Positions 10,967 through 22,939 of a stretch of 64,000 nt of DNA are shown here, one piece after another. Every line of letters starts with the position of its first letter. Positions within the stretch are counted from its first letter, which is position 1. The position numbers and the translations under genes are program-made. The notes beneath the pieces were generated by a model. The model made no database searches and was not told the DNA's origin. It saw nothing but the letters and a program-made list of their open reading frames with translations. Source of the stretch: Metabacillus litoralis (GTDB taxonomy: Bacteria; Bacillota; Bacilli; Bacillales; Bacillaceae). The stretch is taken from assembly GCF_007994985.1 (NCBI RefSeq), contig NZ_VOQF01000007.1, positions 310,001 to 374,000 on the forward strand. Direction: 5' to 3'.

Positions 10967-12679
10967 TTAATCTTCCATCGTTGATAAATCACCTGTTGGT
11001 AAATCAAGTTCCCACGCTTTAAGAACTCGCCGCATAATTTTACCACTTCTTGTTTTTGGTAACTTATCTCGGAAATCAATTTCCCTTGGAGCAGCATGGG
11101 CAGCCAGACCCTGTTTTACAAACAAGCGGATTTCTTCCTTTAACTCATCCGATGGCTCATACCCTTCACGCAATGCGACAAACGCTTTAATAATTTCCCC
11201 TCTAACTGGATCAGGCTTACCGATTACCCCAGCTTCTGCAATTGCTGGGTGTTCAACTAATTTACTTTCAACCTCAAAGGGACCAACACGTTCTCCAGAT
11301 GTCATAATAACATCATCAATTCTACCTTGGAACCAAAAATACCCCTCTTCATCCATATAAGCGGAATCACCTGATACATACCAATCTCCAGGCATAAAAT
11401 AAGATTCATATTTCTCTTGGTTATTCCAAATTGTATGCATCATTGATGGCCAGCCTTTTTTAATAGCCAGATTCCCCATTCGGTATGGTGGAAGCTCGTT
11501 ACCTTGGTCATCAACAATGGCTGCCTGAACTCCAGGAATCGGTTTACCCATAGATCCTGGCTTGATCTCCATACAAGGATAATTACAAATAGTCTGTGCA
11601 CCTGTTTCTGTCATCCACCATGTATCATGAATGCGATTATTAAATACCTTTACTCCCCAACGAACAACTTCAGGATTTAGCGGCTCACCAACACTTAAAA
11701 CATGTCTTAATGAGGTTGTATCAAACTGCTTAACCAGCTCATCTCCAGCACTCATTAACATCCTGAATGCTGTTGGGGCACTATACCAAACAGTTACTCC
11801 ATAATCCTCGATTGTTTTATACCAGGATTCTGGCTTGAATCTTCCTCCAACAATAACATTCGTTGCTCCAGATAACCAAGGACCAAATATTCCATAAACG
11901 GTTCCTGTTACCCAACCAGGATCTGCTGTACACCAGTATACATCATCTTCTTGCAAATCTAAGACCCATTTACTAGTTTGATAATGTTGGACCATGGCTT
12001 GATGTACATGTAAAACACCCTTTGGCTTTCCTGTTGAACCAGAAGTGTAATGGAGCAATAATCCATCTGTTTTTTCTACCCATTCAATATCAATATTTTT
12101 ACTTGCTGTTTTCATTTCTAGTAAGAAATCAATTTGTGAGTCATCAGTTGTTTCCCCAACAACAACAACATGCTTTAATGAAGGCAGCTCATCTACAGGA
12201 ACTCTTTTCAATAGTTCTGGTGTAGTTACAATTACTTTAGCATCACTATCCTCAAGACGATCTCTAACTGCTCCTTCCATGAACGCTTCAAACAATGGTC
12301 CTACAATAGCACCTAGTTTAACTGCTCCTAAAATAACAGAATATAATTCTGGTGTTCTTGGCATAAAGACGAATAGTCGATCTCCCTTTTCAACGTCAGC
12401 CTTGTTTTTTAAAACATTTGCAGCTTTATTTGAAAGTTCCTTCATTTCTTTAAATGTATACTTCTCTTCTCGTTCAGGGTCGCGATAATAAAGAGCAATT
12501 TTGTTTTTACGGTGAGATTCTGCATGTTTATCAATTGCTTCATAAGCTGCATTAATCCGACCTGTTTCTGACCATGTAAAGTTCTCTTCTACCTTATTCC
12601 AATCAAAGGATGCATAAGCAGCATCATAGTCTGATAAGTTGAATTTCCCCTTTGTCGGTGACAACGCTTCCAATTTCAT
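10967..12679 (-). CDS. acsA: acetyl-CoA synthetase (AMP-forming)
   Basis: 570 residues. It converts acetate, ATP and CoA to acetyl-CoA in the cytoplasm. The adenylation P-loop TSGSTGKPKG lies at 212-221 and the hinge/lysine motif PKTRSGKIMRR near the C-terminus. Lys547 there corresponds to B. subtilis Lys549, the residue acetylated and switched off by AcuA. The genes for that acetyltransferase and the matching deacetylase, acuABC, are transcribed divergently right next to it. A minus-strand promoter and a cre site lie upstream, so catabolite control by CcpA, encoded 5 kb away, is likely. Ribosome site AAGGGGGAG. Confidence 0.96.
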   Translation of the reverse strand: MKLEALSPTKGKFNLSDYDAAYASFDWNKVEENFTWSETGRINAAYEAIDKHAESHRKNKIALYYRDPEREEKYTFKEMKELSNKAANVLKNKADVEKGDRLFVFMPRTPELYSVILGAVKLGAIVGPLFEAFMEGAVRDRLEDSDAKVIVTTPELLKRVPVDELPSLKHVVVVGETTDDSQIDFLLEMKTASKNIDIEWVEKTDGLLLHYTSGSTGKPKGVLHVHQAMVQHYQTSKWVLDLQEDDVYWCTADPGWVTGTVYGIFGPWLSGATNVIVGGRFKPESWYKTIEDYGVTVWYSAPTAFRMLMSAGDELVKQFDTTSLRHVLSVGEPLNPEVVRWGVKVFNNRIHDTWWMTETGAQTICNYPCMEIKPGSMGKPIPGVQAAIVDDQGNELPPYRMGNLAIKKGWPSMMHTIWNNQEKYESYFMPGDWYVSGDSAYMDEEGYFWFQGRIDDVIMTSGERVGPFEVESKLVEHPAIAEAGVIGKPDPVRGEIIKAFVALREGYEPSDELKEEIRLFVKQGLAAHAAPREIDFRDKLPKTRSGKIMRRVLKAWELDLPTGDLSTMED

Positions 12680-12714
12680 TATTTACTCCCCCTTATGTAA
12701 CATTTTACATTCCT

Positions 12715-12743
12715 ATTATATTACAATATTTCACTTTTCACAA
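12715..12743 (-). promoter_or_regulatory. sigma-A promoter of acsA
   Basis: Minus strand: TTGTGA (12738-12743), a 17-bp spacer and TATAAT (12715-12720), about 36 bp before the start codon. Confidence 0.7.
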
Positions 12744-12771
12744 TTTTGAGACATATATTTACTAAATTATA

Positions 12772-12786
12772 TTGTAAACGCTTTAT
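12772..12786. promoter_or_regulatory. cre site (CcpA operator) in the acsA/acuABC divergent region
   Basis: TTGTAAACGCTTTAT matches the cre consensus WTGNAANCGNWNNCW at all but one fixed position. It lies upstream of the acsA promoter and would cover the -35 region of a possible acuA promoter whose -10 TATAAT is at 12803-12808. The acsA and acu genes of B. subtilis are also CcpA targets. Confidence 0.7.
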
Positions 12787-12959
12787 TTTATACTGCATTT
12801 AGTATAATAATAGAATAACAGCAATAATCTGCTTTTACATAAGTCAGGTTTCTATGGATGATTCCATCATTTATCATGGTCTATAATGAAAGTGTAGAAT
12901 TTCTAAACCAAAACTAGTTTACTATCTGATCATCACAATATTAAAAGGCGGTGACCTTA

Positions 12960-13592
12960 TTGAAACACCCTAAAACATATAATGCAAAAGAAATAAAAAC
13001 ACCAACGTGGAGTATTTTTATTGAAGGTCCTATCTCACCTGAAAAACTTGCTACATATGATTTCCATGAAGGGTTAGTTGCTTTTCGTCAGCCTAAGCAA
13101 CAGCAAAAGGCATTGATCGAAATAGCGGCTTTACCTGAAGGAAGGATTATTATCGCTAGACAAAATGACCAGATTATTGGATATGTAACTTACCTTTATC
13201 CAGATCCTTTAGAACGATGGTCTGAGGGTAATATGGAAGAGCTAATTGAATTAGGAGCCATTGAAGTTGCCCCTGAATACAGAGGTTTTTCTGTTGGTAA
13301 AAATCTCTTGAAGGTTTCAATGATGGATGATGCAATGGAAGATTATATCATTATCACAACAGAATACTATTGGCATTGGGATTTAAAAGGCTCAGGTTTA
13401 AATGTCTGGGAATATAGAAAAGTAATGGAAAAAATGATGAATGCTGGTGGTTTAGAGTGGTACGCTACAGATGAACCTGAAATTAGTTCTCATCCAGCAA
13501 ACTGTCTCATGGCCAAAATCGGTAAAAGAATACAACCTAACTCTATTCAGCAATTTGATCAATTACGTTTTAAAAATCGCTTTATGTATTAA
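12960..13592 (+). CDS. acuA: acetyl-CoA synthetase protein acetyltransferase AcuA
   Basis: 210 residues, exactly the B. subtilis length when started at the TTG at 12960. A longer GTG start at 12951 overlaps the ribosome site AAGGCGGTGA, which is spaced five bases from the TTG, so TTG is preferred. It is a GNAT-fold enzyme; the acetyl-CoA-binding segment IEVAPEYRGFSVGKNLL lies near residues 103-119. It acetylates the active-site lysine of AcsA and inactivates it. First gene of acuABC. Confidence 0.93.
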   Translation: MKHPKTYNAKEIKTPTWSIFIEGPISPEKLATYDFHEGLVAFRQPKQQQKALIEIAALPEGRIIIARQNDQIIGYVTYLYPDPLERWSEGNMEELIELGAIEVAPEYRGFSVGKNLLKVSMMDDAMEDYIIITTEYYWHWDLKGSGLNVWEYRKVMEKMMNAGGLEWYATDEPEISSHPANCLMAKIGKRIQPNSIQQFDQLRFKNRFMY

Positions 13593-13668
13593 ATGATAAA
13601 CAAAATCCCTTCAAAGGGAATGTAATCTTTTATAGGTAATTTCTTTCATTTCGTAAGGAGGCAACATG

Positions 13669-14313
13669 ATGATCGTTAAGCAAATAATGAAGCAAAACGT
13701 GGTAGCCTTAAACTCAAACGATACAATCCAATTAGCACTAAATACAATGAAAGTAAATAAAATACGTCACATCCCAATATTATCCGATACTGCTAAGTTA
13801 GTCGGCATTATTACAGAACGAGATGTAAAAGATGCAAGCCCATCTATTTTTCAGCTTGAATTAAAAGAAGACTTTTTAAATAAACCTATAAATACCGTCA
13901 TGACAAAAAATGTTGTAACAGGTCATCCTCTAGATTTTGTTGAAGAAGTTGCAGCTGTTTTAATGGAGCATAAAATTGGTTGTTTACCAATATTACAAAA
14001 TGACAAGCTAGTTGGAATGCTCACAGAAACAGATTTGCTGCATACTTTTGTAAAACTGACTGGTGGAGATCAACCAGCATCACATATTGAAATAAAGGTT
14101 CCTAATAAAGCAGGCATGCTCGCAGAGGTCTCATCTATTTTTCGTCATAGAAATGTTAATATCTCAAGTGTTTTAGTTTACCCTGATGCTGATCCAAACT
14201 TTAAAATACTTGTTTTTAGAGTCCAAACGATAAACGTCACGATGATAATTAATGATTTAAAGGGTGAAGGATATGAAATTTTATGGCCTAATTTTCCGGA
14301 GAGCTTAGAATGA
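13669..14313 (+). CDS. acuB: CBS-ACT domain protein AcuB
   Basis: 214 residues. Two CBS domains (about 1-60 and 70-130, with HIPILSDTAKLVGIITERDV and GCLPILQNDKLVGMLTETDL) are followed by an ACT domain from about 140 (IEIKVPNKAGMLAEVSSIF). The architecture suggests sensing of an adenine nucleotide and perhaps an amino acid; the precise role of AcuB in acetoin/acetate metabolism is not established. Tandem ATGs occur at 13666 and 13669 after AAGGAGG. The second gives the B. subtilis-like start MIVKQIMK and a better spacing. The stop overlaps the acuC start as ATGA. Confidence 0.9.
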   Translation: MIVKQIMKQNVVALNSNDTIQLALNTMKVNKIRHIPILSDTAKLVGIITERDVKDASPSIFQLELKEDFLNKPINTVMTKNVVTGHPLDFVEEVAAVLMEHKIGCLPILQNDKLVGMLTETDLLHTFVKLTGGDQPASHIEIKVPNKAGMLAEVSSIFRHRNVNISSVLVYPDADPNFKILVFRVQTINVTMIINDLKGEGYEILWPNFPESLE

Positions 14314-15470
14314 TTAATAAAGATACTGCATTTATTTATTCACCTCTCTTTCAGACATATAAATTTAATAATGATCATCCATTTAATCAGCTGCGTGTTG
14401 AGCTTACTTATGATTTATTAAGGAAAATAAATGCTATTACTGATAACGATATAGCACCTCCTAGAATGGCTACAGTTGACGAATTAGCACTTGTTCATGA
14501 TAGAAAGTATATAAAAGCTGTGGAGTTAGCTGGACATGGGAAATTAACCAGTGAAGAAGGTATGAATTATGGGATTGGCACTGAAGATACGCCAATTTTC
14601 AAGAATATGCATGAAGCTAGTTCACTTTTAGTTGGTGGTACTTTAACAGCAGTTGATCTTGTAATGGAAGGTAAAGTTACACATGCTGCTAACTTTGGTG
14701 GTGGGCTTCATCATGGTTTCCGAGGAAAAGCTTCAGGTTTTTGTATATATAATGATAGCTCTGTAGCGATTCGTTATATGCAAGAAAAATACAACGCAAG
14801 AGTACTATATATTGATACAGATGCTCATCATGGTGATGGTGTACAGTGGACATTTTATGATGACCCAAATGTTTGTACTTTATCTATTCATGAAACCGGA
14901 AGATATTTATTTCCTGGAACAGGCAATATTACAGAACGAGGTGCTGGCAAAGGCTACGGATATTCCTTTAACATACCTTTAGACGCTTTCACAGAGGATG
15001 AATCTTGGCTTTATGCCTATAAAACCTCTTTAGAAGAAGTAGCAGCATTTTTTAAACCAGATGTTATCCTTACACAAAATGGAGCGGATGCCCATTTCTA
15101 CGATCCATTAACACACTTAGCTAGTACTATGAGGATATATCATGAAATTCCTAAGCTCGCTCATGAAATAGCCCATAAGTATTGTAATGGTCGATGGATT
15201 GCAGTAGGTGGGGGTGGATATGATATATGGCGTGTTGTACCAAGAGCATGGAGTCTAATTTGGCTTGAAATGAATAATATACAAGTACCACAAGCCCTCC
15301 CTGAAGAATGGATCAAGCATTGGCAAGCTCAAGCTCCAGTAACCCTCCCAACACAATGGCAGGATCCTAAAGAAATAGTTAAACCAATACCTAGAAAAGC
15401 TGAAATTGAAGAAAAAAATGCTTTAACAGTAGAAAAAGCTCTACACTCCATTCGACCATCAAAGGATTAA
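14310..15470 (+). CDS. acuC: AcsA deacetylase AcuC (arginase/histone-deacetylase fold)
   Basis: 386 residues. It removes the acetyl group that AcuA puts on AcsA, reactivating it. Zn-dependent deacetylase signatures are intact: GGGLHHGFRGKASGFC near 130-145, with the catalytic His pair at 134-135; the metal motif DTDAHHGDG at 169-177; and NGADAHFYDPL further on. Translation is probably coupled to acuB through a 4-bp ATGA overlap. The 3' end is followed by a long stem-loop repeat that could serve as terminator. Confidence 0.94.
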   Translation: MINKDTAFIYSPLFQTYKFNNDHPFNQLRVELTYDLLRKINAITDNDIAPPRMATVDELALVHDRKYIKAVELAGHGKLTSEEGMNYGIGTEDTPIFKNMHEASSLLVGGTLTAVDLVMEGKVTHAANFGGGLHHGFRGKASGFCIYNDSSVAIRYMQEKYNARVLYIDTDAHHGDGVQWTFYDDPNVCTLSIHETGRYLFPGTGNITERGAGKGYGYSFNIPLDAFTEDESWLYAYKTSLEEVAAFFKPDVILTQNGADAHFYDPLTHLASTMRIYHEIPKLAHEIAHKYCNGRWIAVGGGGYDIWRVVPRAWSLIWLEMNNIQVPQALPEEWIKHWQAQAPVTLPTQWQDPKEIVKPIPRKAEIEEKNALTVEKALHSIRPSKD

Positions 15471-15485
15471 TTTTTTACTCCATTA

Positions 15486-15665
15486 AGAGTGGGACATTAT
15501 TATTTAACTTAAAGATAAACCCGAATTATTAGGAGATCGTTACATTATTCTTTCGCCTAAAAGTTCGGGTTTTGCTGTCTATAATATATTTTATGACGTT
15601 GCATACTATTTTTTTAGTACTGGTGGAATGGAGCAAACTTGTTTCTCCAGCTTAGCTGATTAATA
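15486..15665 (+). repeat. composite intergenic repeat, copy A (GTGGGACAT / AAACCCGAATTATTAGG stem-loop)
   Basis: It opens with AAGAGTGGGACAT, then a stem-loop whose arms are AAACCCGAATTATTAGG (from 15517) and CGCCTAAAAGTTCGGGTTTT (15554-15573), then TTGCATACTA and GTACTGGTGGAATGGAGC. The same modules occur in the same order at 55172-55430. Copy A lacks the internal segment between two AATGGARC words that copy B has. It lies just downstream of acuC and can act as its terminator. Confidence 0.8.
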
Positions 15666-15722
15666 GAAAACAGTTTTACATATTGAATAGTTTAGATTTA
15701 TTCGTCTTTATGGACTATTTCT

Positions 15723-17603
15723 TTAATTATTTCCCAGTACCTTACTATTTCTAATAGCAGTTATAGATTTATCAGAATGTGTCTTCATTAAGAAAGAATA
15801 GGAGAAAAGAAGTCCGAATACATATAAACCGCTCGCTATATATGCTGGCAATAAATGAATAAAGGTGGTATACCCAATCACATAATGAATAATGATGCCA
15901 GATAAAAATGCTGGAAGACCTCCGATCAACATACTCCACCATACCCATCTGTCTCCCTCATGAAATCCCCATAATGAGATCATAAGTACAATAAGCCCAA
16001 CACTTAAAAGAGCACTACCAAATCCAGCCCGATCATGAGCAATCACTGGAATTAACGTTTCATTAAACTGATTAATTACTTCAGGAGGCATACATAAGTA
16101 TTCAACATCTGTTTTAACAAAAACATTTGTCATTCCTATAACCGAGATAATGACACCACCTAACGTAAATGAGAAGCCTAAAATAATAAATGACAGTTGT
16201 CCATATAAACTAATTTTCCATGCTTGATGGTTACGTTCATTTTTTGACTTAGGGCTATTTGTGACATTCTTAGTTTTCCTATATCCCATAACAAATAGTG
16301 GTAATAAAATCACCCAAAATAAACCATGTAACCAATCGAAATAACCATATCCTATAAACATTAATATACCTAAAAATCCAGTTACACCAGCTATATTAAT
16401 TGTTTTTCTACACCAATGAATTCCATTTCGTACTCCATGTCTAGCTAGCTGCATATACAAAATGCCACCGGATATCATAGTGCCTGCTAAAGTCATTCGA
16501 TCATGTGCCATAAAAAAGACTATTAACTCATTAAAAGCCAATATCTCACTTCTTGAAATACCTAGAAAAGCTTCATCATACGGCAAAATCACTTTTGTCA
16601 TACTAAAAAGTAAAGCTAAAATTCCACCAATAAAAATACAAAACCCAAATAACCAATACCAAATCCATCCTGGATAGGAGCGATCTGAGGTTTGAGCAAA
16701 TTTATCATCTATTAATTCATTAATCCTCTTTGGCAAGCCTGGGCCTGATGTAATATAACCACCTGATAACATGAGCAGACTTACTCCTTCATTTAGATAG
16801 GTTATTGCATCTTTAGGTTCATTAATTCCTCCAGAAATAATAATAGGCAAAGTTTTCGGTAAGGATGACTTAATCATACGTAATGATTGATTAATAGAAT
16901 AGCTATCTTCTTCTCTATCACAGTCAAGTAAGATACCAGTTACATTCTCATCCTGAATAAGCCCAAAAATATGATCTGTGAAACTATTTAACTGTTTTGG
17001 TGAAACAGCAATGAAAAGAGGTGAATAATCTACATTTTTCTTTAATTGTAAAAAAGAATGCTCATCTAGATTTGTCGTATACTCGATAATAAATGCATCA
17101 CCATGTGGACTCAATTTACTAGTCATGTTTAAAAGCTCTGTTTGATTTCCTTTTATCCTAATTAACTTCTTTACTGAAAGATGATCATACTGACTTAATT
17201 TTTCAATTGTTTTTTGACATCCTAAGGATTCTTCACGTTCTGGAAATTCAATTTTCAAATGATCTTTCTTACTATAGTGAGGTCTTACCTCAGGTTTTTG
17301 TAACTGATCTGTAACAGGACCAATCTCTATAAAGCTAAAACCTAAATTTTCAAATGCCTTCGTTCCAGATAATTGTGGATCTACCTTACCACTAAGTCCT
17401 ATAGGAGATGTAAAAGTCAGTTCATCAACTCTTACTTTATTATGTACCGAAGGCTCCATATGACCTAAAAAACGGATAAGATACTTCCCCCCTGGAATCG
17501 TGGCAATGCCATTCATTCCTCTATGAATAGCTTCTCTCCCAATATGCCCAGGCAGTTTGGCTACTATATGCTTAAAGATTGTGTGGTATGACCAATCAGG
17601 CAT
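15723..17603 (-). CDS. membrane protein with N-terminal dihydroorotate-dehydrogenase-like domain and duplicated membrane domain
   Basis: 626 residues. Residues about 30-300 resemble the class 2 DHOD barrel: TSPIGLSGKVD and LGFSFIEIGPVT near the start, and the FMN-phosphate region IIISGGINEPKDA with GPGLPKRI near the end. The substrate/catalytic SSPNT-type motif is replaced by EYTTNL (174-179), so orotate chemistry is doubtful. Residues 311-605 form about seven or eight membrane helices built from two homologous units: positions 323-369 and 480-525 share GG, MT, FNE and the motif AHDR (366-369 and 522-525). The frame extends to 17666, but AGGAAGGAG favours the ATG at 17603. It sits where B. 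subtilis has motPS. The function is unknown to me. Confidence 0.8.
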   Translation of the reverse strand: MPDWSYHTIFKHIVAKLPGHIGREAIHRGMNGIATIPGGKYLIRFLGHMEPSVHNKVRVDELTFTSPIGLSGKVDPQLSGTKAFENLGFSFIEIGPVTDQLQKPEVRPHYSKKDHLKIEFPEREESLGCQKTIEKLSQYDHLSVKKLIRIKGNQTELLNMTSKLSPHGDAFIIEYTTNLDEHSFLQLKKNVDYSPLFIAVSPKQLNSFTDHIFGLIQDENVTGILLDCDREEDSYSINQSLRMIKSSLPKTLPIIISGGINEPKDAITYLNEGVSLLMLSGGYITSGPGLPKRINELIDDKFAQTSDRSYPGWIWYWLFGFCIFIGGILALLFSMTKVILPYDEAFLGISRSEILAFNELIVFFMAHDRMTLAGTMISGGILYMQLARHGVRNGIHWCRKTINIAGVTGFLGILMFIGYGYFDWLHGLFWVILLPLFVMGYRKTKNVTNSPKSKNERNHQAWKISLYGQLSFIILGFSFTLGGVIISVIGMTNVFVKTDVEYLCMPPEVINQFNETLIPVIAHDRAGFGSALLSVGLIVLMISLWGFHEGDRWVWWSMLIGGLPAFLSGIIIHYVIGYTTFIHLLPAYIASGLYVFGLLFSYSFLMKTHSDKSITAIRNSKVLGNN

Positions 17604-17771
17604 GTAGAAAAACTCCTTCCTATTACATAATCCATAAGATGCGTTTAGACACTTGTGCTTAAACATATTCTAAGAGGAGTAGTAATGAATTCACTTCATT
17701 TCGCCCCACTATAACAACCAACAAAAAATTGAAAAACGAGTACTTTTGTAAAGGTTATAATAATAAACATA

Positions 17772-17802
17772 AAAAAGCGAGCAAAACTTAAAGTTCGCTC
17801 AC
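17772..17802 (-). terminator. ccpA terminator
   Basis: Minus strand: GAGCGAACTT and AAGTTTTGCTC form an imperfect stem followed by GCTTTTTTAT, just after the ccpA stop. Confidence 0.75.
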
Positions 17803-17829
17803 CTCATTATAAATATTTAACTAATTAAT

Positions 17830-18834
17830 TTATTGTTTAGTGGATTGTCTGAATTCCATACGATGTGGTAGTTCTACATTTTGATTTTCTACTTCTTCTT
17901 TATTCATTAACTTCGTAAGCAATCTCATTGATACGGCACCAATATCATATGTTGGTTGTACAACTGTAGTTAATTGTGGTCGGACCATTGTTGCTAGTCT
18001 TGTATTATCAAACCCAACAACTTCAAAGTCATCTGGAATTGAATAATTACGATCTTGTGCCGCATGAATTACTCCTAATGCCATTTCATCTGTTCCAACG
18101 AAAATAGCTGTAGGCTTTTCAGCAAGCTCATCAATCTTCTCAAAAGCTTCAATACCAGAATCATACGTATAATCACCCTCGATGATTAATGATTCATCAA
18201 ACGCAATTTTTGCATCTTCTAAAGCACGTCGATATCCAACAGATTTCTTTAGACGATTAACAGGCTCTTCTGCCGGGCCTTCAACATATGCAATCCGTTT
18301 ATGTCCCTTTTCAACAAGCATTGAAATGACATCATAGGCAGCTTGTTCATAATTGATATTAACAGATGGTGTTGTATCAGTTAAATCAATAGAAGCAGCT
18401 AAGACAATCGGCACTGGAGAGCGTTTAAATTGTTCAACAAGCTCCTCTGTTACATTACCGCTCATGAATACGATACCATCTACTTGCTTACCTAGCATTG
18501 TATTTAAGAGATGTAGCTCTTTATCTTTATTGGAATCTGAATTACTTAAAATAATATTATATTTATACATTGTTGCAATATCTTCAATTCCACGAGCAAG
18601 CTCAGAATAAAAGATGCTTGATATATCAGGAATAATTACACCAACAGTCGTTGTTTTCTTACTTGCTAATCCACGCGCAACTGCATTTGGTCGATATCCC
18701 AATCGATCTATTGCATCTAGTACCTTTTTTCTAGTTGTTGGTTTTACATTTGGATTTCCATTAACTACACGAGAAACTGTAGCCATAGAAACATTAGCTT
18801 CACGGGCAACATCATATATAGTTACACTTGACAT
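17830..18834 (-). CDS. ccpA: catabolite control protein A (LacI family)
   Basis: 334 residues, the normal size. It is the global carbon catabolite regulator; with HPr-Ser46-P or Crh-P it binds cre sites. The LacI helix-turn-helix is at residues 4-25 ([20 protein letters not shown]), followed by the hinge helix with [10 protein letters not shown] and a periplasmic-binding-protein-like core. Upstream AGAAGGAG precedes the ATG. It lies between the DHOD-like gene and aroA, in the same relative place as in B. subtilis. The cre at acsA/acuABC in this window is a likely target. Confidence 0.97.
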
Positions 18835-20794: not shown

Positions 20795-22939
20795 ATGGAT
20801 AATAAAGACCTAACATTTGCTCTGGATATTGGAACTAGATCTGTTGTGGGTTTAATTCTTAAAGAAGAAGATGGCTTCTATTACATTATAGATACAGTAA
20901 TAAAAGAGCATGATAAACGAGCAATGCTTGATGGGCAAATACATGATGTGTTGGCTGTGGCTAACGTTATTTTATCAATAAAGAATGAACTTGAACAAAC
21001 ACATGGATCCTTAAATAAAGTATGTGTTGCAGCAGCAGGGCGTGCATTAAGGACTGAAAGAGCAAAAGTCACCACAGAAATAAAAGGTAAACCAATGATC
21101 CAAAAAGAAGATATCCTACATTTGGAATTAATGGCTGTTCAAATTGCACAAAAGCAATTAGCTGAAAAATATGATAGTGAACGTGCTCACCATTATGATT
21201 GTGTTGGATACTCTGTTCTTCATTTTCATTTAGATAATCAGGAAATCGGTAGTTTAATAGATCAACAAGGTGAGGAAGCGTCCGTAGAAATAATTGCGAC
21301 ATTTCTTCCTAAAGTTGTTGTTGAATCTTTACTAGCCGCATTAAACCGTGCCGGCTTGGAAATGGAAGCACTTACTCTAGAACCGATTGCTGCAATTAAC
21401 GTTTTAATTCCTGCATCAATGAGAAGGTTGAACGTCGCTCTTGTTGATATTGGTGCAGGAACTTCTGATATTGCCATTACAGACTTTGGTACAATCATTT
21501 CTTACGGGATGGTGCCTATTGCAGGAGATGAGATCACAGAAGCAGTTTCAGATGAATTTCTATTAGATTTCCCCAAAGCAGAAGAAGCAAAAAGACAGCT
21601 ATCTTCTCAAGAAAAGATTATCGTAACAGATATATTGGGCTTTGAAACTGAGATGCCGAGAGAAGAAGTAATCGAAAAAATATCTCCTTCTATTGATAAA
21701 CTGGCTATTGCTATTAAAGATGAATTATTGTTATTAAACAATGGAATAGCACCAAAAGCAATTATGCTTGTCGGTGGAGGAAGTTTAACACCCAAGCTAC
21801 CAGAAAAATTAGCAGCACTACTTCAATTACCTACCAATCGTGTAGCTATAAGGGGGATTGATGCTATAAATCAGTTAAAGCTTGCTGATCATGTGCAAAA
21901 AGGCCCTGAGCTCGTAACACCAATTGGGATTGCTGTTTCATCCAAACAAAATCCAATTCAATATATAAGTGTTAAAGTAAATGATCGGTCTGTTAGACTT
22001 TTTCATATGAAAACTTTAACAATTGCAGATAGCCTTTTAGCTTCAGGGATACAACTAAATAAGCTCTATGGAAAACCCGGAATGGCCATAATGGTTGAAG
22101 TAAATGGACAAACAATTACGATCCCAGGTAATCAAGGCTCATCACCTGTGATTAGAAAAAATGATAGCATATGTTTCCTTGATGATGAAATAAAGCATGG
22201 AGATAATATTATTGTAGAAAACGGGCAAAATGGATCAACTCCAGTAATCCCAATATCACAAATAATAGATGAAATACCATCAAAGTCAGTTTCAGTCAAT
22301 GGAACAATCTATACCGTTCAAGCTAATATACTTCTAAATAATCAAGAAACACATGAGGATGTAATTTTATCTGATCGTGATAAGATTTCATGTTCTATAC
22401 CTAAAACAATTGAGGAATTCCTGGAAAAAATAAACTTACAGAGCGAACTTTCAGAGCTTAAACCTTTTTCAATTCAATTAGATGAAGCAGTAGTACCTTT
22501 AGATGTATTTTCAGGTAAAATCTATAAAAATGGGCTTCAAACAACTAGAAATTCCAATCTTGAGAATGGTGATATCCTTGTTATTAAGCCTACTAAATTA
22601 CCAACTGTTGAGGAATTTGTAAAAGAAACAAAAATGATGCTTGTTCAATCTTTACCAATCACATTTAACGAAAAATCAATAACACTTGAAAAATCAATAA
22701 CTGAATTTTACCGAAATGAAAAACTGTTATCACACAAAGATGTTTTACTTAATGGCGATAGAGTAACAACAAAAAGAAAAGCTGTTGAGCCATTTATTTT
22801 TCAAGATATATTCATTGCAATTGATATTGATGTACCCACTTCAGGTACTAGTAAATTTATCTTATTAAAAAACGAGCAAGAAGTAAGCTTTCAGGAGCCA
22901 TTATTACCAGGAGATAGCCTTTCAATTAAATGGCTATAA
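20795..22939 (+). CDS. FtsA/PilM-like actin-fold protein with long C-terminal beta-grasp-like repeats
   Basis: 714 residues, against about 420-440 for true FtsA. Residues 1-385 have an actin-type ATPase core: phosphate-1 FALDIGTRSVVG (8-19), an SHS2-like 1C region, phosphate-2 VDIGAGTSDIAI (217-228) and the adenosine motif MLVGGGSLTPKL (324-335). Residues 390-714 hold about four to five modules of the form hxVNGxxxxI ... LxxGDxIxV (GDNIIV near 469, GDILVI near 592, GDSLSI near 706), resembling ThiS/MoaD-like beta-grasp folds. There is no FtsA-type C-terminal membrane-targeting helix. It is likely a paralog of the division FtsA. The role is unknown; ATP-dependent assembly at the membrane or wall is inference. 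It is monocistronic, with a terminator shared with ytxJ. Confidence 0.78.
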   Translation: MDNKDLTFALDIGTRSVVGLILKEEDGFYYIIDTVIKEHDKRAMLDGQIHDVLAVANVILSIKNELEQTHGSLNKVCVAAAGRALRTERAKVTTEIKGKPMIQKEDILHLELMAVQIAQKQLAEKYDSERAHHYDCVGYSVLHFHLDNQEIGSLIDQQGEEASVEIIATFLPKVVVESLLAALNRAGLEMEALTLEPIAAINVLIPASMRRLNVALVDIGAGTSDIAITDFGTIISYGMVPIAGDEITEAVSDEFLLDFPKAEEAKRQLSSQEKIIVTDILGFETEMPREEVIEKISPSIDKLAIAIKDELLLLNNGIAPKAIMLVGGGSLTPKLPEKLAALLQLPTNRVAIRGIDAINQLKLADHVQKGPELVTPIGIAVSSKQNPIQYISVKVNDRSVRLFHMKTLTIADSLLASGIQLNKLYGKPGMAIMVEVNGQTITIPGNQGSSPVIRKNDSICFLDDEIKHGDNIIVENGQNGSTPVIPISQIIDEIPSKSVSVNGTIYTVQANILLNNQETHEDVILSDRDKISCSIPKTIEEFLEKINLQSELSELKPFSIQLDEAVVPLDVFSGKIYKNGLQTTRNSNLENGDILVIKPTKLPTVEEFVKETKMMLVQSLPITFNEKSITLEKSITEFYRNEKLLSHKDVLLNGDRVTTKRKAVEPFIFQDIFIAIDIDVPTSGTSKFILLKNEQEVSFQEPLLPGDSLSIKWL

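Follow-up and report, generated by a model that had tools for sequence, protein, structure and literature searches.

The window analyzed here, a stretch of 64,000 nucleotides from Metabacillus litoralis, carries on its minus strand (15723..17603) a gene for a protein of 626 residues followed by a stop codon, in which a relative of the class 2 dihydroorotate dehydrogenases (DHODs) is fused to a duplicated membrane module. Judged by the residues lost from its active site, the product is probably not a dihydroorotate dehydrogenase, and we will refer to it as pseudo-DHOD; the coordinates given below for parts of the gene all refer to the minus strand. An alternative start of the open frame would be at 17666. 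The ATG at 17603 is favored over it, because a probable ribosome-binding site read from the sequence, AGGAAGGAG, lies at 17613..17621, and because PDWSY directly follows the start in 79/79 aligned proteins (the first residue of this alignment was set to M by script, irrespective of the start codon). Frame, upstream site and aligned starts agree with the coordinates and the start proposed in an earlier note on this DNA, both of which were right. The 79-protein set comprises the window protein and 78 of the 80 fetched loci; the two omitted are L018, with a stop after residue 285, and L078, with a frame broken near residue 58.

The pseudo-DHOD gene is flanked by one gene of the histone-deacetylase family and one of the LacI family (10967-18834), which we take to be acuC-like and ccpA-like, respectively; in Bacillus subtilis, the corresponding place is presumably occupied by motility-stator genes. 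A terminator-like stem-loop (17774..17805, minus strand; two such sites were found vs. 1.2 expected from shuffles) separates it from the upstream LacI-type gene (17830-18834), and the pseudo-DHOD gene is thus probably transcribed alone. Elsewhere in the window, the plus strand encodes a 714-residue FtsA/PilM-like protein (20795-22939; PF11104, PF14450), about 330 C-terminal residues of which fall outside its best Pfam stretches (E 0.001). Neighborhoods were compared across 81 loci with frames called by a crude script: the largest shared clusters occurred in 14 and 13 loci, no conserved neighbor pointing to respiration was found among them (commonest cluster, 14/81), and a same-strand frame followed within 60 bases downstream in 5/80 loci. 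Thirteen patterns were tried in 77 upstream regions, and none appeared in more than four; SigW-type matches were found in three (0.3 expected from mononucleotide shuffles), Fnr-type in two (none expected) and a weak Fur/Zur-type match in one. Another DHOD match in the same genome is far stronger (353 bits), by inspection a class 1B-like pyrD in a pyr cluster with pyrE-, pyrF-, pyrK- and carB-like frames, so pyrimidine synthesis should not need the pseudo-DHOD gene.

The dihydroorotate dehydrogenase-like half

The DHOD-like barrel that the earlier note had placed at the N-terminus was borne out by profile comparisons. Pfam model PF01180 (DHO_dh) matched the window protein with 34.9 bits, over its gathering cut-off of 27, and a 57-member profile (56 of the 80 loci plus the window protein) found class 2 DHOD structures in the PDB at E 1.9e-14. 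HHalign paired this half with E. coli PyrD (1F76) at 98.4% over 278 columns, residues 6-294 of the window protein against PyrD residues 2-332, the N-terminal helices and with them the alpha1-alpha2 microdomain being included. The NCBIfam class 2 model TIGR01036 gave 46.9 bits and did not reach its equivalog cut-off of 200, the best related model scored 71.2 against a cut-off of 267, and all ten class 2 models listed stayed far under their cut-offs. Residues 1-55 (17439..17603), opened by the PDWSY common to 79/79 proteins, are by profile alignment the equivalent of the class 2 microdomain (alpha1-alpha2), which docks the enzyme to the membrane. Residues 56-300 (16704..17438) form the barrel, related to class 2 DHOD by profile matches and, by residue mapping, bereft of the active site. 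Alignment to PyrD confirms two motif readings made before: the phosphate-side loops are retained (residues 257-296, 16716..16835), with SGGINEPKDA at 257-266 and SGPGLPKR, the beginning of SGPGLPKRINE, at 286-293; and EYTTNL (residues 174-179, 17067..17084) stands in place of the catalytic SSPN, opposite N-I-S-S-P-N of PyrD.

Nineteen E. coli PyrD positions were mapped onto the 79 Bacilli proteins and onto 10 more distant Bacilli members, using what we take to be the PyrD site numbering (S175 as the catalytic residue; K66, N111, N172, N177, N246 and T247 for orotate; and the FMN positions). Only D65 (79/79; 10/10) and G297 (66/79; 9/10) are generally kept, and K66, K217, T86, G114 and Y318 are kept in 0/79 and 0/10; where conservation is poor, in the central part of the barrel, the mapping depends on the alignment. 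The catalytic S175 is Thr in the window protein; its column is poorly conserved, with Ser in 9/79 and 1/10 proteins, against 16/17 class 2 enzymes. The window protein keeps none of the six orotate positions, which are found in 0 (K66), 1 (N111), 12 (N172), 4 (N177), 3 (N246) and 7 (T247) of the 79 proteins, only T247, once, in the 10 distant members, and each in 17/17 class 2 enzymes. Regarding FMN, N139 is kept in 7/79 and 0/10 and T245 in 5/79 and 0/10; N139 has given way to a new conserved Arg in 62/79 and 10/10. G268 is kept in 0/79 but in 5/10 distant members, where A62 and S319 are also found in 4/10 and 6/10, respectively; this partial retention speaks against the FMN site having disappeared entirely in those members, which may still bind FMN. 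Thus, the eroded catalytic motif that had been noticed is real, but the erosion is not confined to it, since the orotate site is gone too.

The control set consisted of aligned segments, not whole proteins, from 17 class 2 enzymes: E. coli PyrD, eight Bacillota matches over the TIGR01036 cut-off (six from one family) and eight out of 66 plasmid records picked for spread, five of these annotated as quinone-dependent DHOD and three without such annotation. Sixteen of the 19 positions are identical in at least 16/17 of these enzymes (K217, N139, G268 and Y318 in 17), and the remaining three (86, 245 and 319) in 12 or 13, T86 being found in 13 and T245 in 12.

Conservation along the protein is also inverted with respect to class 2 enzymes. 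Mean pairwise identity in the family amounts to 0.61 for residues 1-55, 0.52 for 56-110, 0.26 for 111-250 and 0.58 for 251-300, and reaches 0.65 and 0.66 in the two membrane units, the most conserved parts of all; roughly matching segments of the 17 class 2 enzymes gave 0.36, 0.62, 0.46 and 0.56. As the two sets are unequal in overall divergence, the order of the segments counts rather than the values, and the lead of the microdomain over 251-300 is small. The docking helices thus vary most in class 2 enzymes, and in the family they are better conserved than any other segment of the barrel half. In class 2 DHODs, the microdomain has been proposed to govern how the enzyme interacts with the membrane and binds ubiquinone; it belongs to the least conserved regions (PMC8910288). 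Conservation of the membrane part, the docking part and the phosphate side argues for selection acting there and not on the catalytic center.

Besides the barrel by homology, pseudo-DHOD has in common with class 2 quinone-dependent PyrD (TIGR01036; E. coli 1F76) the two-helix docking microdomain and the GG and SGPG-type phosphate-side loops; it differs in lacking the catalytic Ser, the orotate site and several FMN contacts, in an aligned N-terminal half about 40-55 residues shorter, in the fused duplicated membrane module and in the inverted conservation pattern. Eukaryotic class 2 DHODs also tether the DHOD fold to the membrane, through an N-terminal transmembrane domain that anchors an active enzyme (PMC8910288), whereas in the present family a C-terminal duplicated module is best conserved and the active site is lost.

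The duplicated membrane module

The C-terminal half is made of two homologous units, delimited by HHalign, hydropathy, conservation and Smith-Waterman alignment: unit 1 comprises residues 312-455 (16239..16670) and unit 2 residues 466-612 (15768..16208). HHalign aligned one with the other with a probability of 98.6%, E 1e-15 (E-values for a single pair are indicative only) and a score of 95.2 over 135 columns, compared with 12.8-16.7 for five column-shuffled controls and one reversed control. In the window protein alone, the Smith-Waterman score of 154 exceeds the maxima of 1000 plain shuffles (70) and of 1000 hydropathy-class-preserving shuffles (74). The two-unit architecture suggested by the earlier note is therefore upheld, with some corrections: the repeat is longer than the 46 residues of its spans (323-369/480-525), extending over about 135 residues per unit, and the 156-residue offset holds as far as residue 411 and becomes 157 beyond it by HHalign. 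Concerning the motifs said to be shared in register, HDR is invariant in both units (79/79), in agreement with the His/Asp pair attributed to each; of FNE, only N exceeds 90% in both (78 and 75 of 79).

Identity between the units within one protein is 21-32% (mean 26%), and at 16 positions the same residue is found in at least 90% of the proteins in both units. Seven pairs are present in 79/79 proteins: D343/D499 (16575..16577 and 16107-16109), H367/H523, D368/D524 and R369/R525 (the HDR motifs, residues 367-369 at 16497..16505 and 523-525 at 16029..16037), W397/W553, Y421/Y578, and H426/H583 (16326..16328 and 15855-15857). The D, HDR, W and H of both units are likewise invariant in a 17-member set (divergent Bacilli and, at 37% identity, the Mycobacterium branderi member described below), where the Tyr of unit 1 is nearly invariant.

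Of the eight helices proposed, seven exceed the threshold in hydropathy profiles; helix 2 of unit 1 is postulated from its partner in unit 2. Per sequence, the linker averages 5.1 K/R, loops 2-3 of the two units 2.4 and 1.3, the tail 2.0 and loops 3-4 none. The positive charge of the linker, loops 2-3 and tail suggests that the barrel is likely cytoplasmic and the HDR ends likely at the outer membrane face. The charge rule is not obeyed throughout: loop 1-2 of unit 1 averages roughly 2 K/R, and acidic residues outnumber basic ones just ahead of helix 1 (1.5 K/R, 2.2 D/E).

The membrane half matched no family in the collections searched. Searches with this half of 17 members and with the two unit consensuses gave no Pfam or NCBIfam match over cut-off (best E, 0.074 and 0.01, respectively); PDB sequences returned nothing of note, the best hit being an RNA polymerase subunit at E 0.12; PADLOC had no match to it, and PHROGs matches were confined to the barrel. 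A database match of the second half to a characterized domain, which by the earlier note would have refuted its reading, was thus not found in these resources. Free-standing forms were found neither among 33 class matches (398 genomes; three of the 33 broken) nor among two phylum matches (398 genomes), nor in plasmids; the phage collection gave no match, and of 41 pattern stretches from IMG/VR none proved to be a relative. A Haloarcula plasmid match was dismissed (E 6), while a weak match in L083, a transporter-like frame by inspection, a match in genome G297 (E 8.6e-4), absent from the 33 class matches, and a second match in genome G735 (E 7.4e-4) were taken as chance. Phyla other than Bacillota were covered through the plasmid, phage and viral collections only. 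A literature search, with most subscription journals outside its reach, returned no paper that we recognized as describing a fusion of DHOD with a membrane module. To judge from these searches, and if the reading proposed below holds, the module would be a conserved family without catalogued relatives that bears a matched pair of candidate sites.

Distribution of the family

A contig scan revealed 152 candidate stretches encoding relatives, 80 of which were kept; these bear names of genera that we assign to the Bacillales, and the scan leans to close relatives because its patterns came from the window protein. The gene was carried by 33/398 genomes of the class sample and 2/398 of the phylum sample (the window's own genome counted in each). 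Eight other genomes of the same family were listed, all without the gene, which indicates a patchy distribution. The N-terminal half was read in 10 of the 33 class matches. Barrel and membrane module form one uninterrupted frame in 78/80 fetched relatives, and the frames of 30/33 class matches are 599 residues or longer; on these frames, the fusion is old. That the halves are separate genes mis-joined by a frameshift or an assembly error could be argued from the relatives found split or deleted: L018 and L078, genomes G326 (gene split across two frames) and G771 (also split), and G183. The conserved fusion refutes this explanation, to which we assign practically no chance.

In G183 (L095, 3958-4893), one continuous frame lacks the stretch that runs from the last part of the barrel through unit 1 into the first part of unit 2. 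Its final 8 bases are shared with the beginning of the next frame, by inspection histidine-kinase-like, after which comes a response-regulator-like one. A full-length relative in the same genus (L098) has no such kinase in the 584 bases downstream.

The sole member found outside Bacillota is encoded by a plasmid of the actinobacterium Mycobacterium branderi (L084, 5407-6924) and annotated as a hypothetical protein. It contains both membrane units and starts with PDWTYHP, only about 198 residues precede the aligned module, and with just eight columns aligning to the barrel, these may or may not be a reduced form of it. On a Mycobacterium intracellulare plasmid, an annotated gene of 74 residues (L120, 3001-3225) has a match (68.9%) to the M. 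branderi member that is confined to the latter's N-terminal 61 residues, and is perhaps a remnant.

Possible roles of pseudo-DHOD

The fusion, the duplication, the loss of active-site residues and the inverted conservation are features of which we are highly confident. The second DHOD in the genome and the unconserved neighbors lead us to read pseudo-DHOD as a membrane protein capped by a DHOD that has lost catalysis and been put to another use. Its working part would be the tandem duplicate of a four-helix unit, giving eight helices in an integral membrane protein, each unit presenting an invariant set of Asp, His-Asp-Arg, Trp, Tyr and His at the outer membrane face. The N-terminal half descends from a class 2 DHOD, of which nothing but the docking microdomain, the phosphate-side loops and the scaffold of the barrel has been retained; it would cover the module from the cytoplasmic side, without catalytic function. 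An isoprenoid lipid, in the simplest case menaquinone, is conceivable as the ligand, its tail using the retained microdomain, whose retention is the sole source of this idea; the two HDR sites might bind the head of the ligand or carry protons. Taken as a whole and with the ligand included, this reading is tentative and more doubtful than not.

A metal site or an outward-facing enzyme would fit the HDR sets nearly as well as an isoprenoid-lipid ligand. If the two D/HDR/H sets were metal sites, the module would bind or transport a metal and the barrel would act as a regulatory cap, a rather unlikely alternative for us. The two Asp and two His of each unit, invariant in both units and in the Mycobacterium member, are a usual combination of metal ligands, and the single, weak Fur/Zur-type upstream match points the same way; however, an invariant Arg adjoins the His-Asp, which is unusual for a cation site, and no neighbor cluster is shared by more than 14/81 loci. 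Should the module instead be an outward-facing membrane enzyme (acting, e.g., on a lipid head group), the HDR would be catalytic and the barrel a vestigial scaffold. This would agree with the membrane units being the most conserved part and the middle of the barrel the least, and also with the polar invariant residues gathering at one face if the proposed topology is right; but no enzyme family in Pfam or NCBIfam matched the membrane half over cut-off, and the conserved microdomain and phosphate-side loops indicate that the N-terminal half is not simply vestigial. We consider it unlikely.

The idea of the earlier note, a barrel binding FMN in an altered way and serving the membrane module as flavin sensor or redox partner, seems to us distinctly improbable. 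Although the PF01180 match, the GG and SGPGLPKR loops, the widely kept G297, the partial retention of A62, G268 and S319 in distant members and the new Arg replacing N139 could accommodate such binding, K217, T86 and Y318 are missing from every protein of both sets, N139 and T245 from nearly all, and G268 from all 79, in contrast to their conservation in class 2 enzymes; flavin dependence is therefore unsupported, though some redox or quinone role may apply.

Returning to the cap over a lipid-binding membrane protein, a bolder form of it would make pseudo-DHOD a new family of membrane proteins handling isoprenoid lipids. The quinone-tail microdomain and the phosphate-side loops of a DHOD would have been turned into a cap that recognizes a lipid on the cytoplasmic side, either menaquinone or an isoprenoid phosphate (e.g., undecaprenyl phosphate). 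The membrane part beneath this cap would be a transporter or an enzyme of pseudo-two-fold symmetry, its D/HDR/H sites paired and directed outward. We regard this form as a long shot. DUF368 is a family of lipid-carrier transporters whose likeness to the module is general, and neither DUF368 nor DedA appears in the Pfam and NCBIfam scans of the membrane half. The DedA lipid-carrier transporters (PMC10127716) resemble it just as broadly, in no more than being membrane proteins that handle an isoprenoid lipid.

One relative, in Cytobacillus spongiae, is annotated as a dihydroorotate dehydrogenase, a label that is probably wrong by the residues discussed above; pathways reconstructed from it could be misleading. 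If pseudo-DHOD is indeed a membrane protein with a DHOD-derived cap, the family would be a clear case of an enzyme whose catalysis was lost while its membrane-docking part was retained as a fixed component of a new membrane protein.
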